Assembly (NCBI RefSeq): GCF_900096955.1
Contig: NZ_FMYL01000003.1
Location: forward strand, 62,001 to 126,000
Reading direction: 5' to 3'
DNA from: Acinetobacter boissieri
GTDB lineage: Bacteria > Pseudomonadota > Gammaproteobacteria > Pseudomonadales > Moraxellaceae
DNA length: 64,000 nucleotides
The notes below the pieces were generated by a model that was not told the DNA's origin, ran no database searches, and saw only the letters and a list, made by a program, of their open reading frames with translations. A program made the position numbers and the translations under genes. Below, in pieces: positions 20,632 to 29,856 of this stretch; within the stretch, counting starts at the first letter, position 1, and the number at the start of each line of letters is the position of its first letter.

Positions 20632-21723
20632 TTAAACGTTAAAGCGGAAATGCATTACATCGCCATCTTTTACAATATAAGTTTTCCCTTCTAAACGCCA
20701 TTTTCCAGCATCTTTAGCACCAGACTCTCCATTAAATTGAATAAAGTCATCATATGCAATCACTTCAGCTCGAATAAAGCCTTTTTCAAAATCTGTGTGA
20801 ATAACACCTGCAGCTTCAGGGCCAGTTGCACCAACCTTCACAGTCCAAGCACGAACTTCTTGTACACCTGCTGTAAAATACGTTTGTAAGCCAAGTAGAC
20901 CATAACCTGCACGAATCACCACATTTAAACCTGGTTCTTCCATACCCATAGCTTCTAAAAACTCAGCACGGTCTTCATCTTCTAATAACGAGATTTCTGA
21001 CTCAATTTGATTACACAATGGTACAACAATTGCATTTTCTTTCTCAGCAAGATCACGTACGGCGTCTAGGTGAGGATTATTCTCAAAACCATCCTCTGAG
21101 ACATTTGCAATATACATGGTCGGCTTTAGTGTCAAAAGACCATAACCACGAAGTAGTTTATGATCATCTTCTGATAAATCTGCAGCACGGGCAGGTTGGC
21201 CTTCATTCAAAAGTGGTAGAATCTTTTCTAATACTGCTTTTGTAGCAATCGCATCTTTATCACCACTTTTTGCATTTTTTGCTAAACGAGTTACAGATTT
21301 TGTAACAGTTTCTAAGTCAGAAAGTGCAAGCTCTGTATTTATCGTTGCAATATCATCGAGTGGGTCTATTTTTCCGTTAACGTGAATAACATTTTCGTCT
21401 TCAAAGCAACGTACTACGTGAGCGATTGCATCTGTTTCACGAATATTTGCCAAAAATTGGTTGCCAAGACCTTCTCCCTTAGATGCACCTGCCACTAAAC
21501 CCGCAATATCTACAAACTCCATTGTAGTAGGTAGCACACGTTGTGGCTTTACAATTGCTGTTAGTTTTTCTAGTCTTGAGTCTGGTACAGGCACTATACC
21601 TGTGTTTGGCTCAATGGTACAAAAAGGAAAGTTTTCAGCAGCAATTGCTGCCTTAGTTAAGGCATTAAAAAGTGTTGACTTGCCAACATTCGGTAGACCA
21701 ACAATACCGCAATTAAAACCCAT
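20632..21723 (-). CDS. ychF: Redox-regulated ATPase YchF
   Basis: Obg-family P-loop protein (363 residues) that hydrolyses ATP in preference to GTP and binds ribosomes. G1 [14 protein letters not shown] is at about 8-21, G3 [16 protein letters not shown] near 70, and the G4 position reads NVSED in place of NKxD, which explains ATP preference. A coiled-coil insert and a C-terminal TGS domain (ending VMHFRFNV) follow. Free-standing, minus strand. Confidence 0.96.
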
Positions 21724-21885
21724 GAAGTACTCACAAAAATGTTATATGAATTGTCCGTAATTCTACATTAAAGTAAAAATAAAGTCAGGAATAACTGTTT
21801 TTATGATAATTTTATGCGCAATTTTTATTATTTGCTTATAATATCACATATAAAAATAAGTCTGGATTATTAGAGTAAAGAGCAT

Positions 21886-22647
21886 ATGCGTACTTTGTAT
21901 CAATTTCCGTTATCTCACTTTTGTGAAAAAGCACGTTGGGTTTTAGATCATAAAGAACTTGATTATGTTGCACATAATTTAACACCTGGAATACATCGTT
22001 TTTTTACGCAACGTAAAGCTAGTGTAAATACACTTCCTTTATTAAATGATTGTGGACATTGGATTGCTGACTCTACAAAAATTACAATACACTTAGATCA
22101 ATGCTACCCAGAAAATAATTTAGTTCATCATAATCCAACAATAAATAGACACATACTAGAAATGAATGACTTAGCGAATGAATTGGGTAACTATGTACGG
22201 CGTTGGGTCTTAGGAGGTATTATTTTACCTAATAGCCATTCTATAGATATTCTAATTGGTGAAAAAGGATATTTAAAAAAGTTTAAAAAATATAGCAAAC
22301 CTATGCTTTCTTTGGTATTGAGAAAACACTTTCAGTTAAACACTCACGATTTAAATGAGATTGAAGCACATATTTTAAATATAATAAATATATTCAATCA
22401 GCAACTTTTAAAAACAAATACAGGTTATATGGTTCAGGATTATTTAACACTTGCTGATATTGCAATATGTAGTATGGTTGCACCAATATTGAATGTAGAA
22501 GGTACACCTTGGGAAGTAGAACAGTTACAATCTAATGAAGAATCAAACATATTAAAAAATAAAATACTCACACTTCCTCTTGGTGAATATGTTAATCACA
22601 TATACAAAAATCAGCGTAATGCTAGAGTAGATTGGCGTGGTATATAA
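21886..22647 (+). CDS. Glutathione S-transferase family protein
   Basis: 253 residues. The N-terminal thioredoxin-like half begins LYQFPLSHFCEKARWVLDHKELDY, the usual GST entry with SHFCEKAR at the glutathione site, and includes LPLLNDCGHWIADSTKI. The C-terminal helical domain contains MVQDYLTLADIAICSMV, the common GST N-capping segment. Substrate unknown. AGAGCAT precedes the ATG. It is AT-rich and stands alone between ychF and sbp; the following 233 bases hold no gene. Confidence 0.85.
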   Translation: MRTLYQFPLSHFCEKARWVLDHKELDYVAHNLTPGIHRFFTQRKASVNTLPLLNDCGHWIADSTKITIHLDQCYPENNLVHHNPTINRHILEMNDLANELGNYVRRWVLGGIILPNSHSIDILIGEKGYLKKFKKYSKPMLSLVLRKHFQLNTHDLNEIEAHILNIINIFNQQLLKTNTGYMVQDYLTLADIAICSMVAPILNVEGTPWEVEQLQSNEESNILKNKILTLPLGEYVNHIYKNQRNARVDWRGI

Positions 22648-22837
22648 AATTAAGAGTACAATAATTTTTAGGACATAAGAAAAATATCTGTTCTGAATTT
22701 AGTATATAGGTTTAGCAGCCAATCGTATTCACTTTAAACCGATACATAAAAGCAATCAATAAACATCTAAACCAGACATATTTAGTTGCTAAATATCGTA
22801 TTTCATAAATAAAAGATCTAAAACTTACGGCGTAAAA

Positions 22838-22866
22838 AAAAGCACCTTTTTATATGGTGCTTTTAA
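22838..22866 (-). terminator. Intrinsic terminator of the sulfate-binding protein gene
   Basis: AAAAGCACC (22838-22846) pairs with GGTGCTTTT (22856-22864), with a T-run on the minus strand, 17 bases after the stop. Confidence 0.8.
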
Positions 22867-22880
22867 ATTAAAATAAAAAA

Positions 22881-23879
22881 TTATTTTTTATAGATTTGAT
22901 CAAAAATACCGCCATTTGAGAAATGAATCTTTTGCGCATTTGCCCAACTACCAAATACCGAATCAATAGTAAACAACTGCAACTTTGGAAACTTACTCGC
23001 ATACTTTAAAGCAACTTCTTTGTTTCGAGGTCTAAAGTTGTATTGTGCTGCTAGATCTTGGCCTAAAGGAGAGTATAGGAAATTTAAGTAACCTTTTGCG
23101 ATTAAACGATTACCATTTTCGTCTACTGTTTTATCTACAATTGCGACAGAAGGTTCTGCTAAAATTGAAATAGATGGATAAACGATTTCAAACTCACCTT
23201 TTGGTAAGTTCTGTTGCGCCAATAATGCCTCATTTTCCCAAGTCAGTAAAACATCACCAATATTTCTTTCAGTAAATGTTGTCATAGATGCACGTGCTGC
23301 AGAATCTAATACTTTAACGTTCTGATAAATATTAGTCACTAACTGACGTGCTTTCGCATCATTACCACCAGGCTGTTTAAGTGCATATCCCCAAGCTGCT
23401 AAATAAATCCATCTTGGTGCACCACCTGTTTTAGGATTAGGGGTAATTACCTCTACACCTGGTTTAGCTAAATCGTTCCAATCTTTAATCTGTTTAGGAT
23501 TACCCTTGCGAACTAAGTAAACAATAGTGGAGGTATAAGGGGCAGAGTTGTTTGGAAATTGTTTTTGCCAATCTTTGCGGATATATCCTGCATTTGAAAT
23601 TTCGTCTATATCATTTGCTAAAGCCAATGTCACGACATCTGCTTTTAATCCCGTAGCAACAGCACGGGCTTGTTTACCAGAGCCACCATGCGATTGTTTA
23701 AAATCAATTCGTTGACCTGTTCTGCTGTACCAATACTCTCCAAACGCTTTATTGTAGTCTTTATAAAATTCACGCGTTGGGTCATAAGACACATTTAAAA
23801 AGCTTTTAGTTTCAGCTGCAATGGCTGATGTTGAAGACAAAATCAGGCCTAAAACACCCATTAAAAATATTTTTTTCAT
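22881..23879 (-). CDS. Sulfate/thiosulfate ABC transporter substrate-binding protein
   Basis: Periplasmic receptor of the CysP/Sbp family, 332 residues. The signal peptide is cleaved near SAIAA-ETKS. The mature protein opens with LNVSYDPTREFYKDYNKAF and has the SHGGSGKQARAV loop that binds sulfate, then TGGAPRWIYLAAWGYA. The permease and ATPase genes are not nearby, so this is an orphan receptor that must use a transporter encoded elsewhere. Its upstream neighbour on the same strand is a cysteine desulfurase, suggesting a sulfur-supply context. Confidence 0.92.
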   Translation of the reverse strand: MKKIFLMGVLGLILSSTSAIAAETKSFLNVSYDPTREFYKDYNKAFGEYWYSRTGQRIDFKQSHGGSGKQARAVATGLKADVVTLALANDIDEISNAGYIRKDWQKQFPNNSAPYTSTIVYLVRKGNPKQIKDWNDLAKPGVEVITPNPKTGGAPRWIYLAAWGYALKQPGGNDAKARQLVTNIYQNVKVLDSAARASMTTFTERNIGDVLLTWENEALLAQQNLPKGEFEIVYPSISILAEPSVAIVDKTVDENGNRLIAKGYLNFLYSPLGQDLAAQYNFRPRNKEVALKYASKFPKLQLFTIDSVFGSWANAQKIHFSNGGIFDQIYKK

Positions 23880-24081
23880 ATAAATCCCTAATTTAATCTA
23901 ACAATATGCCAATCATTGAAATCGAAAGATCTAAGGCATTCTGCTGTAAATGACACAATAAAATTGTAAAACTATAATAAATTAAAATTATAGAGAGTTA
24001 TCTGTAGTTGTATAACAACAATACGATATAAACTTATATAAGTAAGTAATATGTATTAATTACTCATTATTAAGCAGTGCA

Positions 24082-25248
24082 TTAATTAAATGTCACAATC
24101 TGAGTCGTTTGTTGAACGTACTCTAAATGATGAAGTAAATCATCAATATTTTTCTCAGTCGTATATTTTCCAAAACTAAAACGAATTGCATTTTTCGCAA
24201 GATCTTCAGTTCGATCTATAGCAACTAAAACATGTGACGCACCCGATTTACCAGAATTACATGCTGAACCGCTAGACACAGCAGCGAATGCTTTCACGGC
24301 GTTAATGAGTACAAAAGGGTTGTCTGCTGTAAATGACACATTTAAGTAATTAGCAACTCGCTGTTCTGAATCACCATTCAGGACAATACTCGTCATCTCT
24401 GTTAAACCATCAAATAATTTTTTTTGCAAAATACCAAGGCGTTCTTGCTCTATATGTAAGTTCGATTTAGCGATTTTAAATGCTTCACCCATACCTACAA
24501 TTTGATGTGTTGCCAATGTTCCCGAACGACAACCTTGCTCATGGCCACCACCATGAATTTGTGGTTCAATTTCAAATGTTTTTTGATGATTTACGTACAA
24601 GGCACCAATACCTTTAGGCCCATATACTTTATGCGCAGATAAACTTAACAAATCAATATTAAATGCATGTACATCTATAGCTAGCTTACCTGCGGCTTGC
24701 GCTGCATCAACATGAAAAAAAATGTCATGCTTTTTAGCAATTTCACCAATCGCTTGAATATCTGTAATTGTACCAATTTCATTATTAACCATCATGAGTG
24801 AAATAAGCACAGTATCTGGACGAATAGCTTCTTGTACAGCTTCTGGCGTAATAAGCCCTGTATTGGTTTTTGGTTTAAGGTAGGTTACTTCAAAACCTAA
24901 AGTTTCCAACTTAGCACAGCTATCTAAAATTGCTTTGTGTTCAATTTGACTAGTAATGATATGTTTACCACGAGAGGCATAACGCTCAGTAACGCCTTTC
25001 AATGCAAGATTATTTGACTCAGTTGCACCAGAGGTCCAAATGATTTCATCTGCTGATGCACCAATCAATACAGCGACATCACTACGTGCTTGTTCTACTT
25101 TTTGTCTTGCTTGTTGCCCAAAAGGATGACCATTTGAAGCTGGATTACCAAATGTACCAGTAAAAGAAAGGCTTTGTGCCATTATATCTATAATTTCAGG
25201 ATAAACTGGTGTGGTTGCAGCATAATCTAAATAAATTTGCTGTTTCAT
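24082..25248 (-). CDS. Cysteine desulfurase (NifS/IscS family)
   Basis: PLP enzyme that removes sulfur from cysteine as a persulfide for Fe-S clusters or tRNA thiolation. 388 residues from ATG 25248 (MKQQIYLDYAATTPVYPE), chosen by the family N-terminus and an AGGGA site; the ORF start at 25317 adds non-family residues. The PLP Lys is in SLSAHKVYGPKGIGALY, the catalytic His in TSQIEHKAIL and the loop Cys in SSGSACNSG. It has no isc or suf neighbours, so it is probably an additional copy and not the housekeeping IscS. Confidence 0.92.
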   Translation of the reverse strand: MKQQIYLDYAATTPVYPEIIDIMAQSLSFTGTFGNPASNGHPFGQQARQKVEQARSDVAVLIGASADEIIWTSGATESNNLALKGVTERYASRGKHIITSQIEHKAILDSCAKLETLGFEVTYLKPKTNTGLITPEAVQEAIRPDTVLISLMMVNNEIGTITDIQAIGEIAKKHDIFFHVDAAQAAGKLAIDVHAFNIDLLSLSAHKVYGPKGIGALYVNHQKTFEIEPQIHGGGHEQGCRSGTLATHQIVGMGEAFKIAKSNLHIEQERLGILQKKLFDGLTEMTSIVLNGDSEQRVANYLNVSFTADNPFVLINAVKAFAAVSSGSACNSGKSGASHVLVAIDRTEDLAKNAIRFSFGKYTTEKNIDDLLHHLEYVQQTTQIVTFN

Positions 25249-25537
25249 ATCCCTAAACTCTCCAAATGAATTTTTTCGATTTAAATATAACAAAAAGTGA
25301 TAAAGAAGCATAGACATAATACTTAGTCAAAACCATTTGAATTAAAATATCACAAGTGTTATCTAGTTCTTATTATTTCATATTTTGACTAAATGTATTC
25401 ATCTCAAAAATAAATAAAAAATCATATTTAAATATATAAAATTGCATTAGATTTTCACTTATTTTAATAGTCATAAAGCTTATATTTGTTTTAGCATAGC
25501 AAACATCGTTTATTAAAAAATTATAAGGTCATTTATT

Positions 25538-26989
25538 GTGGTCAATATTAGAAACCTAACAGATCTAGAACAGCAAATAAAAGAAGACTTTACTCATCTA
25601 AACATCCCAAAAAAATCGTGGATGATTCCAAGAAATCATTTAGAAAATGAAAAAAATCATATTGATGTAGCAATTATTGGTGCGGGCATGTCTGGTTTAG
25701 CACTGTCTTTAGCTTTATATACGGAAGGGATTAACGCTATTGTTTTTGATCAGTGTAAAGAGGGCGAAGAGGGGCCTTGGAAAAATACTGCGCGTATGGA
25801 AACGCTTAGATCTCCTAAACAAGCCATTGGCCCTGCCTTAAGCTTTCCATCACTTACATTTCAGGCTTGGTTCAAAGCTCAGTTTGGACAAGAACACTGG
25901 GAATTACTTGATAAAATTCCTCGGTTACAATGGCATGACTACTTACAGTGGTTTAAAAAAGTAACTCAGCCATATATTCTTTATGAGCATAATCTCATTG
26001 ATTTAAATGTAGGAGAAAAGGGAAGTACATTGTATTTTAAAAATTTAGCCAATGGAGAAATTCAAACTTATATGTCTTCTCATACAATATTGGCTATGGG
26101 GATTGATAGTTTTAGTTCGCCTAACATACCTACATTTATGAATAATGTCTCAAATCATCGCTGGGAGCATGCGTATCATCGTAGTAATTATCATAAATTC
26201 AAGAATCTAGATATTGGTGTCATTGGTTATAGTGCGGGTGCAATGGATAGTTCTGCCACAGCATTAGAATGTGGTGCAAAAAGTGTAGAAATATTATGTC
26301 GTTGTAAGGATTTTCCACGGGTAAATAGAGGAAAAGTTGCATTCAATTCAGGATATCTAAATTCTTATCCATATTGGTCTGATCAACAAAAATGGGATTT
26401 TAATTATTACTTAAAACAAGAAAGAACACCTGCACCACATGGTAGTACACTTAGAGTATCTCATCATAAAAATGCATACTTTAACTTTGATGAACATGTC
26501 GTATCAGTGAAAGAATACCAAAATAAGATTCATATACAAACAAAAAAACATCACTTTATATTTGATTATTTAATTTTAGCGACAGGTTTTTCTCTAAACT
26601 GGTCAAAATATTCATGGCTGTCTTATATAAGAGATCATACAAAGCAATGGAAAGATCAATATATTTCAAATGAACTACCTGATAATTCACTTTCTCAAGC
26701 ACCTTATTTAACAACTAATTTTGAGTTTATTGCAAAATCAAAGCAGTTAGATTCTGATTTTTCTAGACTATATTGTTTTAACTATAGTGCATCGCTTAGT
26801 CAAGGGCCTTTAGTTGGTATGATTTCTGGAGTTGAACACGGTGCACCACATTTAGCAAAGGCTATTTCTCATAAAATATATTTAGATTCATTTGATCAGT
26901 ATATAAATAAGGTAAAACACAGTGAAGATTTTGAGCTTGAAGGCAACGAATGGGAAGTGACTTTACCTTATGTTACAAGACAAAGTTGA
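25538..26989 (+). CDS. FAD/NAD(P)-binding oxidoreductase (monooxygenase-like)
   Basis: 483 residues from GTG 25538 (AAGG about 11 bases upstream). The first dinucleotide fold, HIDVAIIGAGMSGLALSLALY (about 42-62), binds FAD; the second, IGVIGYSAGAMDSSATAL (about 228), would bind NAD(P)H but has GYSAGA in place of the usual GxGxSA. DYLILATGF in the C-terminal third is the common motif of flavin-containing monooxygenase-like enzymes. Substrate unknown. It is AT-rich, about 550 bp from dif, and followed by a DUF2805 gene on the same strand. Confidence 0.8.
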   Translation: MVNIRNLTDLEQQIKEDFTHLNIPKKSWMIPRNHLENEKNHIDVAIIGAGMSGLALSLALYTEGINAIVFDQCKEGEEGPWKNTARMETLRSPKQAIGPALSFPSLTFQAWFKAQFGQEHWELLDKIPRLQWHDYLQWFKKVTQPYILYEHNLIDLNVGEKGSTLYFKNLANGEIQTYMSSHTILAMGIDSFSSPNIPTFMNNVSNHRWEHAYHRSNYHKFKNLDIGVIGYSAGAMDSSATALECGAKSVEILCRCKDFPRVNRGKVAFNSGYLNSYPYWSDQQKWDFNYYLKQERTPAPHGSTLRVSHHKNAYFNFDEHVVSVKEYQNKIHIQTKKHHFIFDYLILATGFSLNWSKYSWLSYIRDHTKQWKDQYISNELPDNSLSQAPYLTTNFEFIAKSKQLDSDFSRLYCFNYSASLSQGPLVGMISGVEHGAPHLAKAISHKIYLDSFDQYINKVKHSEDFELEGNEWEVTLPYVTRQS

Positions 26990-27108
26990 ATTTAATGTGG
27001 GTGCTTATTGTACATATTCATATTTAGTGTTTTACTATTATTTCAAAGTAAAGACGTATCTGTTCACCTTAAAGCAAAATAAATCAAACTACAGAAATAC
27101 AAAACAGC

Positions 27109-27148
27109 AGAGGTATATACTATGACATCAATAATATGACATCAATAA
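27109..27148 (+). promoter_or_regulatory. Tandem duplication of a start site creating a 5-codon upstream ORF
   Basis: TATGACATCAATAA occurs twice in direct succession (27121-27134 and 27135-27148). The ribosome site AGAGGT (27109-27114) is 7 bases from the first ATG (27122), which reads MTSII and stops at TGA 27137-27139. That stop overlaps the second ATG (27136) of the DUF2805 gene as ATGA. The second ATG is 21 bases from the ribosome site, too far for normal initiation, so expression probably needs termination-reinitiation. Confidence 0.75.
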
Positions 27149-27396
27149 AAGATTTTTCGGCTGAGGATCTATCAAGAGTTATTGAAATGGCATGGGAGGA
27201 TAGAACACCTTTTGAAGCAATTGAATATCAGTTTGGACTCAATGAATCAGAGATTATTAATTTGATGCGAACCCATATGCAACCTGGGAGCTTTCGTTTA
27301 TGGCGAGAGCGCGTAACAGATCGAAAAACCAAACATCTAAGACTGAGATCACCTGAAGTAAGTCGAGCATATTGTTCAAGACAATATAAAGTTTAA
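27136..27396 (+). CDS. DUF2805 / TIGR03643 family protein
   Basis: 86 residues with the family core DLSRVIEMAWEDRTPFEAIEYQFGLNESEIINLMR and a basic C-terminus (WRERVTDRKTKHLRLRSP) ending in YCSRQYKV. The helical pattern suggests a helix-turn-helix-like nucleic-acid binder, but function is not established; relatives are often found near photolyase/cryptochrome genes, which are not seen here. The start is disturbed by a 14-bp tandem duplication. It ends 137 bases before the dif site. Confidence 0.8.
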   Translation: MTSIKDFSAEDLSRVIEMAWEDRTPFEAIEYQFGLNESEIINLMRTHMQPGSFRLWRERVTDRKTKHLRLRSPEVSRAYCSRQYKV

Positions 27397-27532
27397 TCAA
27401 AGTAAATGAGTAGCTGTTTCTTATAGCAAATAATAAAAAATATTGAAACATGGAGTTAGTGTAGCTACTCATTTAATCCAAGTATTTATAACAGATATAC
27501 ATAGATCTAATTACTATTTTTGGATATATCCC

Positions 27533-27560
27533 ATTTCGCATAAGGTATATTATGTTAAAT
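27533..27560 (+). other. dif: Chromosome dimer resolution site dif (XerC/XerD)
   Basis: Left arm ATTTCGCATAA (27533-27543), 6-base spacer GGTATA, right arm TTATGTTAAAT (27550-27560). The E. coli dif site differs at only 4 of 28 positions (three in the outer XerC arm, one in the spacer); the XerD arm is identical. It is alone in an intergenic gap of 270 bases, as expected for the chromosomal site and unlike the paired pdif sites of Acinetobacter plasmids. Genes to the right are mostly minus strand and those at the far left plus strand, which fits a terminus here. Confidence 0.9.
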
Positions 27561-27666: not shown

Positions 27667-28254
27667 TTAGTTAAACAATTCATTACGAATAATATATTCA
27701 ATATGGCGCTGAAACATATCGTGATCCAATCCACGTAACCCTAGATTACAAATGTTTTCTAGCCCACACACAAATGTAATCAGCCGCCATGCAATATCAG
27801 TTGAATTGGTATTCTTTTGAATAACATATTCTTTGTTTACTACACCCAATTCTATTAAGTCTTTAATGCTGGTATGCCATTGCTCCATTGTTAAGTTATA
27901 CGCTTTTTGAATTTCTTCATCTTGAGCCAAAATTACTTCAGCTTCATTCCATAACTTCAAATAAGGCTGTACTTGCTGAATATCTTCACATCCCAGTGAA
28001 ATAGATATTTTTGTGTACCAATTATCAGTTTCGACTGATTTTTCAATCATCGTTAATTGATTCATTAAGCAAGTAAATACTTCAGCTTTTAAATGAGATG
28101 CGGATTTGAAATGATGATGCACTTGCCCTGTAGATATCTGTGCCTCAGTGGCTATACGCCTTACCGTCATAGCACTCAGACCATCTTTTAATGCAAGCCT
28201 CATTGCCACATCTAAAATCATTTTATGCCGTTGCGGTTTATTTAAGTAACTCAT
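27667..28254 (-). CDS. TetR-family repressor (AmvR/SmvR-like)
   Basis: 195 residues from ATG 28254; an upstream TTG at 28263 is less likely. The helix-turn-helix AMTVRRIATEAQISTGQVHHHFKSASHLKAEVF is typical TetR, followed by an all-helical ligand domain. It is divergent from an SmvA/AmvA-type efflux pump, and two palindromes lie in the 120-bp gap, so local control of the pump by cationic biocides is likely by analogy with SmvR and AmvR. Confidence 0.88.
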   Translation of the reverse strand: MSYLNKPQRHKMILDVAMRLALKDGLSAMTVRRIATEAQISTGQVHHHFKSASHLKAEVFTCLMNQLTMIEKSVETDNWYTKISISLGCEDIQQVQPYLKLWNEAEVILAQDEEIQKAYNLTMEQWHTSIKDLIELGVVNKEYVIQKNTNSTDIAWRLITFVCGLENICNLGLRGLDHDMFQRHIEYIIRNELFN

Positions 28255-28303
28255 AAAAATCAAACCCGTACATATATAGCGTTATTTTTATCATAAAATA
28301 AAA

Positions 28304-28355
28304 TTGGACATTTGTTCAAGTTAAATATAACCTTATATTTTGAACAAGCGTCCAA
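28304..28355. promoter_or_regulatory. Twin operator and promoter of the efflux pump gene
   Basis: TTGGACATTTGTTCAA (28304-28319) and TTGAACAAGCGTCCAA (28340-28355) are each near-palindromes of the form TTGRAC-N4-GTYCAA and are inverted copies of each other, centres 36 bp apart. The first overlaps a plausible -35 (TTGGAC, 28304-28309), with TATAAC at 28326-28331 as -10, so a bound TetR dimer would block the pump promoter. This start lies 20 bases before the pump ATG. Confidence 0.7.
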
Positions 28356-28374
28356 GTTTAGTTTTAGGTGCTAA

Positions 28375-29856
28375 ATGAAACAAAAATATATTATTCTTAC
28401 TGCTATTATTCTGATTTATTTACCTGTCACCATAGATGCCACTATTCTTTATATTGCAATGCCAACGCTCAGTGCTGCATTAAATTTAAGTAGTAGTCAG
28501 CTACTATGGGTACTCGATATCTACTCTTTAATTATGGCAGGTCTTATTCTACCGATGGGTGCGTTAGGTGACCGTATCGGTTATAAAAAACTCATGCTTA
28601 TTGGTGCAACAGTTTTTGCGCTCGCCTCTTTTATGGCTGCATTTTCTAATAGCGCATACATGCTTATTGGTGCTCGTGCACTACTAGGATTAGGTGCTGC
28701 AATGATTTTGCCTGCAACCCTTGCTGGTGTTAGACAAACATTTACTAATGATAAGCAAAGAAACTATGCTCTAGGCATCTGGAGTACTGTGGGTGGCGGT
28801 GGCGCTGCAGTTGGCCCATTACTAGGCGGATTTATCTTAGAATATTTTGACTGGGGAATGATATTTTTAATCAATATTCCAATTATTTTAGTCGTCATTT
28901 TTTTAAGTCTTAGATATATTCCCAAGCAAAATACCAACAAGAGTCAAAACCTCCACTTAAAACAGGCTTTAATTTTAATCTCGGCTATTTTAATGCTCAT
29001 TTACGCTGTGAAGTCTGCATTCTATGCTATAAATATGAGTGTATTTTTACTATTTTCGCTAGGTTTATTGTGTTTGATTTATTTCATTCGAAATCAAAAA
29101 AAATCTATAAACCCAATGATAGATGTAAGTCTATTTAAAAATAGAATCATTTCCACCAGTATTGTAATGTCTACTTTTGCAATGATTGCATTGGTCGGCT
29201 TTGAGCTTTTACTCTCTCAAGAGTTACAGTTGATTTACAATTACACTCCACTTGAAGCAGGTATGTTTATTCTACCATTTATGCTCGCAATAAGCCTTGG
29301 TGGTCCTATTGCAGGATATGTTATGAATAGATATCCCCTATATAAAATTGCAACTGTAGGTATGTTTTTTTGTGCATTGAGTTTTCTAGGATTAGCGAAT
29401 ATAGACTTCCAAGACGATGCAATGAGTGCTTGGTTTTGGATGGTTGTAATGGGACTCAGTATTGAGATTTCTTTTTTATCATCAACATCTGCAATTATGT
29501 CTTCAACACCATCACACAAAGCAACAGCTGCAGGTGCAATTGAAGGTATGGCATATGAGCTTGGTGCTGGACTAGGTATTACTATTTTTGGCTTATTGCT
29601 CTCTTATTTTTATACAGCATCATTTATTGTTCCTGAACAAATTACGACATTAGAAATACAGTATGGAGTTACAGAAACACTTAATGTGGCGACATCTATT
29701 GAAGATAAACAAATATCTCAACAGTTAGTTGACGCTGCTCATCGTTCTTTTTCATTCGCTCATCAACAAGTGCTTTATGTTGCTAGTGGTGTATTCTTGA
29801 GTTTATCTATTTTTGTGTATATGCGTTTAAAAAACACACCGTATAATCCAATTTAA
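28375..29856 (+). CDS. MFS multidrug efflux pump, SmvA/AmvA type
   Basis: DHA2-family proton antiporter of 493 residues with 14 membrane helices. LDIYSLIMAGLILPMGALGDRIGYKK is motif A and the run GGGGAAVGPLLGGFILEYFDWGMIF is the antiporter motif C. The N-terminus (VTIDATILYIAMPTLSAALNLS) matches SmvA/AmvA pumps, which export quaternary ammonium compounds, chlorhexidine and dyes. It is divergent from a TetR gene with operators over its promoter. Confidence 0.9.
   Translation: MKQKYIILTAIILIYLPVTIDATILYIAMPTLSAALNLSSSQLLWVLDIYSLIMAGLILPMGALGDRIGYKKLMLIGATVFALASFMAAFSNSAYMLIGARALLGLGAAMILPATLAGVRQTFTNDKQRNYALGIWSTVGGGGAAVGPLLGGFILEYFDWGMIFLINIPIILVVIFLSLRYIPKQNTNKSQNLHLKQALILISAILMLIYAVKSAFYAINMSVFLLFSLGLLCLIYFIRNQKKSINPMIDVSLFKNRIISTSIVMSTFAMIALVGFELLLSQELQLIYNYTPLEAGMFILPFMLAISLGGPIAGYVMNRYPLYKIATVGMFFCALSFLGLANIDFQDDAMSAWFWMVVMGLSIEISFLSSTSAIMSSTPSHKATAAGAIEGMAYELGAGLGITIFGLLLSYFYTASFIVPEQITTLEIQYGVTETLNVATSIEDKQISQQLVDAAHRSFSFAHQQVLYVASGVFLSLSIFVYMRLKNTPYNPI

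Follow-up and report, generated by a model that had tools for sequence, protein, structure and literature searches.

The 28-bp sequence at positions 27533-27560 of the window (i.e., the whole 64-kb stretch of DNA analysed here, corresponding to C11:62001-126000) is very probably the main dif of the chromosome in the host Acinetobacter, as judged from its sequence and its position. The chromosomal dif is the site at which XerC and XerD resolve chromosome dimers, so that daughter chromosomes are separated before cell division. As a finding, the dif at 27533-27560 is correct and ordinary, of a well-known kind, with one unusual core. The site and its predicted parts are as follows:

27533-27560, 28 bp: dif site, ATTTCGCATAA-GGTATA-TTATGTTAAAT
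27533..27543, + strand: predicted XerC-binding arm of dif, ATTTCGCATAA (8/11 vs the presumed E. coli dif; relatives show arm or outer-base variants of the same form, among the matches listed)
27544..27549, + strand: central region (core), GGTATA, predicted place of strand exchange (5/6 vs the presumed E. coli dif; the usual core is TGTATA)
27550..27560, + strand: predicted XerD-binding arm of dif, TTATGTTAAAT (11/11 vs the presumed E. coli dif)

Compared with what we take to be the E. coli dif sequence, the window 28-mer is identical at 24/28 positions and differs at three bases of the XerC arm and one base of the core, in line with the 24 matching positions and identical XerD arm of the original prediction; the core was described there as matching, which holds for five of its bases but not for the first one, G instead of T, and the wording was slightly too strong. 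Inner inverted repeats, CATAA/TTATG, surround the 6-bp core. A relaxed dif pattern gave a single match in the window, with 0 mismatches, while dinucleotide shuffles of the window gave a mean of 0.11 matches at ≤3 mismatches, with at least one match in 11/100 shuffles. Leaving aside the site itself, read on either strand, the best other 28-mers of the window exhibit 5 mismatches over the 22 arm positions; scored against the consensus of the genus, the site differs at 1 position and the next 28-mers of the window at 7. Throughout the draft genome (2,690,205 bases, 29 contigs, 99.96% complete), it was the sole match at ≤3 mismatches, and a looser two-arm pattern retrieved nine more sites, of which contig C21 holds six and C28, C15 and C17 hold one apiece. 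The site sits in a gap of 270 bases, from the end of a DUF2805 ORF at 27396 to the low end of a TetR ORF at 27667. It had thus been rightly described as single and intergenic, and the search for a second or better dif suggested at the time returned no better one in the draft genome.

The position of the site with regard to replication was considered from the GC skew, computed on C11 alone, i.e., a contig of 265 kb representing about 10% of the genome. In bins of 10 kb, the raw skew was positive throughout the first 80 kb (8/8 bins) and negative from there on (19/19 bins), a sign change from plus to minus of the type expected of a terminus; the 80-90 kb bin, in which most of the left flank of dif lies, was already slightly negative. 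The maximum of the cumulative raw skew was located at C11:82,652, i.e., 6,881 bp to the left of dif (C11:89,533), and a change-point in the raw skew fitted 16.7 lnL units better at 82.6 kb than at dif. When the skew was taken at third codon positions and corrected for strand, with ORFs called mechanically and breakpoints tried each 500 bases from 20 to 250 kb, the best breakpoint fell at 88.5-89.5 kb, next to dif. In proteobacteria, the median distance from dif to the skew peak is given as 7,277 bp (PMC2731167). The interval defined by these analyses is:

20652..27533, no strand: from the raw cumulative GC-skew maximum to dif, strand-composition switch (skew analyses)

The terminus had been placed within the window, and this is supported, the skew changing sign on C11 here only, at a resolution of 10 kb. 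The change of gene orientation around the site, also part of the original prediction, is roughly right as a pattern of the window, but along the contig it is gradual, with 59 plus and 20 minus ORFs to the left of dif and 71 plus and 93 minus to the right; it is the GC skew and not gene orientation that constitutes strong evidence of a terminus. KOPS-like words point mostly toward dif (GGNAGGG, 20/25; GGGNAGG, 16/21; GGGNAGGG, 3/4), but they are few, GC skew alone could cause such a lean and the KOPS of the host genus may differ. No match to a MatS-like pattern was found on C11.

The surroundings of the site could be compared with Acinetobacter rathckeae, whose strain EC24 was the sole relative with a species name among the matches to the FAD-protein ORF left of dif (75% identity). 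In this species, dif reads ATTTCGCATAA-TTGGTA-TTATGTTAAAT and occupies the collinear place, so that 0/22 arm bases and 4/6 core bases differ from the window site (Fisher p 0.0007, for one genome pair). Of 104 ORFs of ≥80 aa within 60 kb of dif, searched against 120 kb of A. rathckeae, 85 were matched, and 85/85 had the same order and orientation over approximately 100 kb. The 19 unmatched ORFs comprise eleven on the far left and four on the far right, which probably fall outside the compared A. rathckeae stretch, two more that immediately precede the window, and a tetR and smvA-like pair at dif. Within the window, 59/61 ORFs are collinear and the two unmatched ones are precisely this pair, the first two genes right of dif (27667-29856); it may have been gained in the genome of the window or lost in A. 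rathckeae. With all 85 matched ORFs collinear, rearrangement near the terminus is not seen. The original statement, which called insertions and rearrangements common in this region, is therefore half right, failing for rearrangements but agreeing with the unmatched ORFs (19/104), those of the window being directly beside dif. Scans of the 64-kb window for tRNA genes and Rfam families returned nothing. The immediate neighbours are:

27136..27396, + strand: DUF2805/TIGR03643 ORF, next to dif on its left side and likewise found left of it in A. rathckeae
27667..28263, - strand: TetR-family regulator ORF, right neighbour of dif, unmatched in the A. rathckeae region
28375..29856, + strand: SmvA-like MFS efflux ORF, unmatched in the A. 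rathckeae region (684 bits to NF011571, cut-off 701)

Among known systems, the closest counterpart is the main dif (dif1) of Acinetobacter, e.g., TGTTCGTATAA-TGTATA-TTATGTTAAAT in A. baumannii A1 (PMC10132070), or that of ADP1 (PMC2731167). The window site shares with dif1 its 28 bp, the succession of XerC arm, 6-bp core and XerD arm, an identical XerD arm, the intergenic location and a terminus position by GC skew; unlike in dif1, the core starts with G and not T, and the outer bases of the XerC arm differ, as they do between species. The two-arm XerC/XerD layout is also that of Acinetobacter pdif and secondary sites, with a core one base from GGTGTA (PMC6449649; PMC11705084; PMC12907356), but the pdif sites described there are paired around gene modules, mostly plasmid-borne and often with the XerD arm TTATGTTAATT, whereas the window site is single and at the terminus.

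Over the genus, CGNATAA-TGTATA-TTATGTTAAAT is present in 140/175 genomes. The other 35 genomes were read by hand, and among the matches listed three have TGTATA with a changed end of the XerD arm (G117, G123, G153) and 24, including the genome of the window, have an altered core, eight being left outside the core classes (G005, G030, G044, G128, G129, G136, G146, G164). The main dif of relatives was assigned by sequence and not by skew, with two candidates in G120 and a XerD arm also changed in G069. Among the matches listed, the first core base is T in 23/24 altered-core genomes and G only in that of the window, a count that leans to T since 12 of the 23 other altered cores came from a search in which the first core position was fixed as T and ≤3 mismatches were allowed, the other search leaving this position open. 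Likewise, GGTATA with these arms was found, among the matches listed, only in the genome of the window. Across the order, CGNATAAGGTATATTATGTTAANT occurs in 1/390 genomes, again that of the window, and only 3/390 belong to the genus, so that the rarity within the genus rests on the genus-wide searches; the exact 28-mer was absent from the named-species collection. A main chromosomal dif in Acinetobacter, whose central region varies more than its arms, is already described (PMC6449649; PMC2731167). A title-level search found no title devoted to core turnover of this dif, and no claim of being unpublished is made.

As regards the machinery, profile searches of the genome indicate that XerD is encoded (350.6 bits, cut-off 329.6), together with one FtsK_gamma domain (90 bits, cut-off 30.6) and a second recombinase whose best profile is XerC, at 319.1 bits and hence below the XerC cut-off of 335.15. 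The site, its position and these genes are observed; that strand exchange would take place at 27533-27560 we infer from the pathway established in E. coli and A. baumannii. Following this pathway, sister chromosomes joined as a dimer by recombination would have both dif copies brought together by FtsK at the septum, the gamma domain of which would activate XerD for exchange of a first pair of strands at the core, and XerC would then exchange the second pair, yielding two monomers. Sites of this kind are acted on by XerCD in A. baumannii, where FtsK-gamma controls cleavage; plasmid sites there recombine if they have closely related central regions, and one pair tolerates a single difference between them (PMC11705084). 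Since dimer resolution joins two sister copies whose cores are identical, a change from T to G at the first base of the core should be no obstacle to it.

It could be argued that the site is a stranded pdif or secondary dif of the plasmid dif-module system, the real dif lying elsewhere. The core would fit, GGTATA being one base off GGTGTA, a common pdif core (PMC11705084; PMC10132070), as would the presence in the same genome of six two-arm sites on the plasmid-like 76-kb C21 and one on C28; furthermore, among the matches listed, GGTATA also occurs at apparently secondary sites with changed XerD arms in G009 and G107. This reading is nonetheless very unlikely. The site is at the skew switch, on a 265-kb contig that is collinear with a chromosome contig of A. 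rathckeae and not a plasmid, its XerD arm TTATGTTAAAT is that of the genus main dif, the collinear A. rathckeae region has its dif at the same place, and the draft genome holds no better dif candidate. With no partner site at ≤3 mismatches in the window, there is no inverted pair flanking a gene module, and it is on position and absence of such a partner that a pdif is disfavoured.

That the site is a former dif inactivated through its core change, dimer resolution being lost or moved, appears extremely unlikely. While the window site is alone among the assigned main dif sites of the genus in having G at the first core base, among the matches listed, pdif sites of A. baumannii recombine with cores whose first base is G or C (PMC11705084), cores vary in the 24 assigned genus sites (among the matches listed), both arms are intact, and Xer genes as well as FtsK-gamma are present. 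A chance match would be favoured by the AT-richness of the window and by arms that are themselves AT-rich words, but with 0 mismatches where 0.11 matches are expected even at 3 mismatches, 1 mismatch to the genus consensus against 7 for the next 28-mers, and a position at the skew switch, its probability is negligible. The points against a primary dif are the raw skew peak 6.9 kb away, the 80-90 kb bin that is already slightly negative, the XerC candidate under the cut-off, KOPS-like words that are few and confounded by GC skew, and a core unique among the genomes compared.

Besides the primary dif of the window, the dif sites of relatives were considered for elements lying next to them, over 78 sites, i.e., that of the window plus 77 of relatives, a set deliberately enriched in altered cores and hence not random. 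The literature describes IS1202-family elements that sit 5 bp away from the XerC arm of dif (PMC10132070), as well as filamentous phages using dif and Xer, with a suggestion to that effect for A. baumannii phages (PMC5357621; PMC11209303). In 22/78 dif sites, one of two motifs of IS-end type (14 and 8 sites, respectively) lies 4-8 bp to the left of the XerC arm, against none of the shuffled flanks; the family name IS1202 is taken from PMC10132070, and the comparison of a transposase-like ORF beside dif with others covered one site with an IS-end motif (G026). An IS1202-family insertion at the window dif was rejected, the IS-end motifs being absent there, with 10 and 12 mismatches in 23 at best.

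On the other side of the site, a flank designated R1, right of the XerD arm and with a short inverted repeat, was observed at 26/78 sites and is absent at that of the window. A 150-base R1 query was matched in 17/29 genomes tried, and, with copies also present away from dif, R1 was dropped as a working accessory element. Away from dif, 11 copies were inspected: 7 follow a stretch that ends in TTAAAT, which in one case lies three bases further left, and the other 4 do not. This suggests that R1 flanks may be leftovers of successive integrations of elements at dif. In G078:C1, two near-identical dif copies at 1,431,975 and 1,439,005 lie 7.0 kb apart with the same orientation and left flank, the arrangement expected from integration of an element at dif. 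In G005, which has the same left neighbour (DUF2805), the XerC arm is followed by a different sequence, TGGCTGATTATGTTACTT, among the matches listed; beyond this arm, close to where the examined stretch ends, come a 7-base gap and TTATGTTACTT and then an inverted repeat. Perhaps an element is integrated at dif there.

The 76-kb contig C21 has six pdif-like sites between 4,948 and 38,589, with differing cores, none of them GGTATA. Over its first 15 kb, stretches are in common with 118 plasmid records (115 from Acinetobacter), with repM and mobC genes among those listed and none covering 80% of the query. By this sharing, the sites on C21 resemble the pdif sites known from plasmids of the genus, and C21 is a probable plasmid.

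Because the arms are equal between the window site and A. rathckeae while 4/6 core bases differ, core turnover between fixed arms is mildly interesting. It is conceivable, if rather improbable, that the dif core of the genus turns over between fixed arms under the drive of mobile elements hijacking XerCD, where a new core would be a poor partner for phages or modules with the old core, or would itself be the leftover of an element. For the organism, the dif at 27533-27560 marks the replication terminus of the genome and as such orients the genes of the window relative to replication. For the genus, the core comparison provides a small testable case of whether elements exploiting Xer shape the chromosome's own site of dimer resolution.
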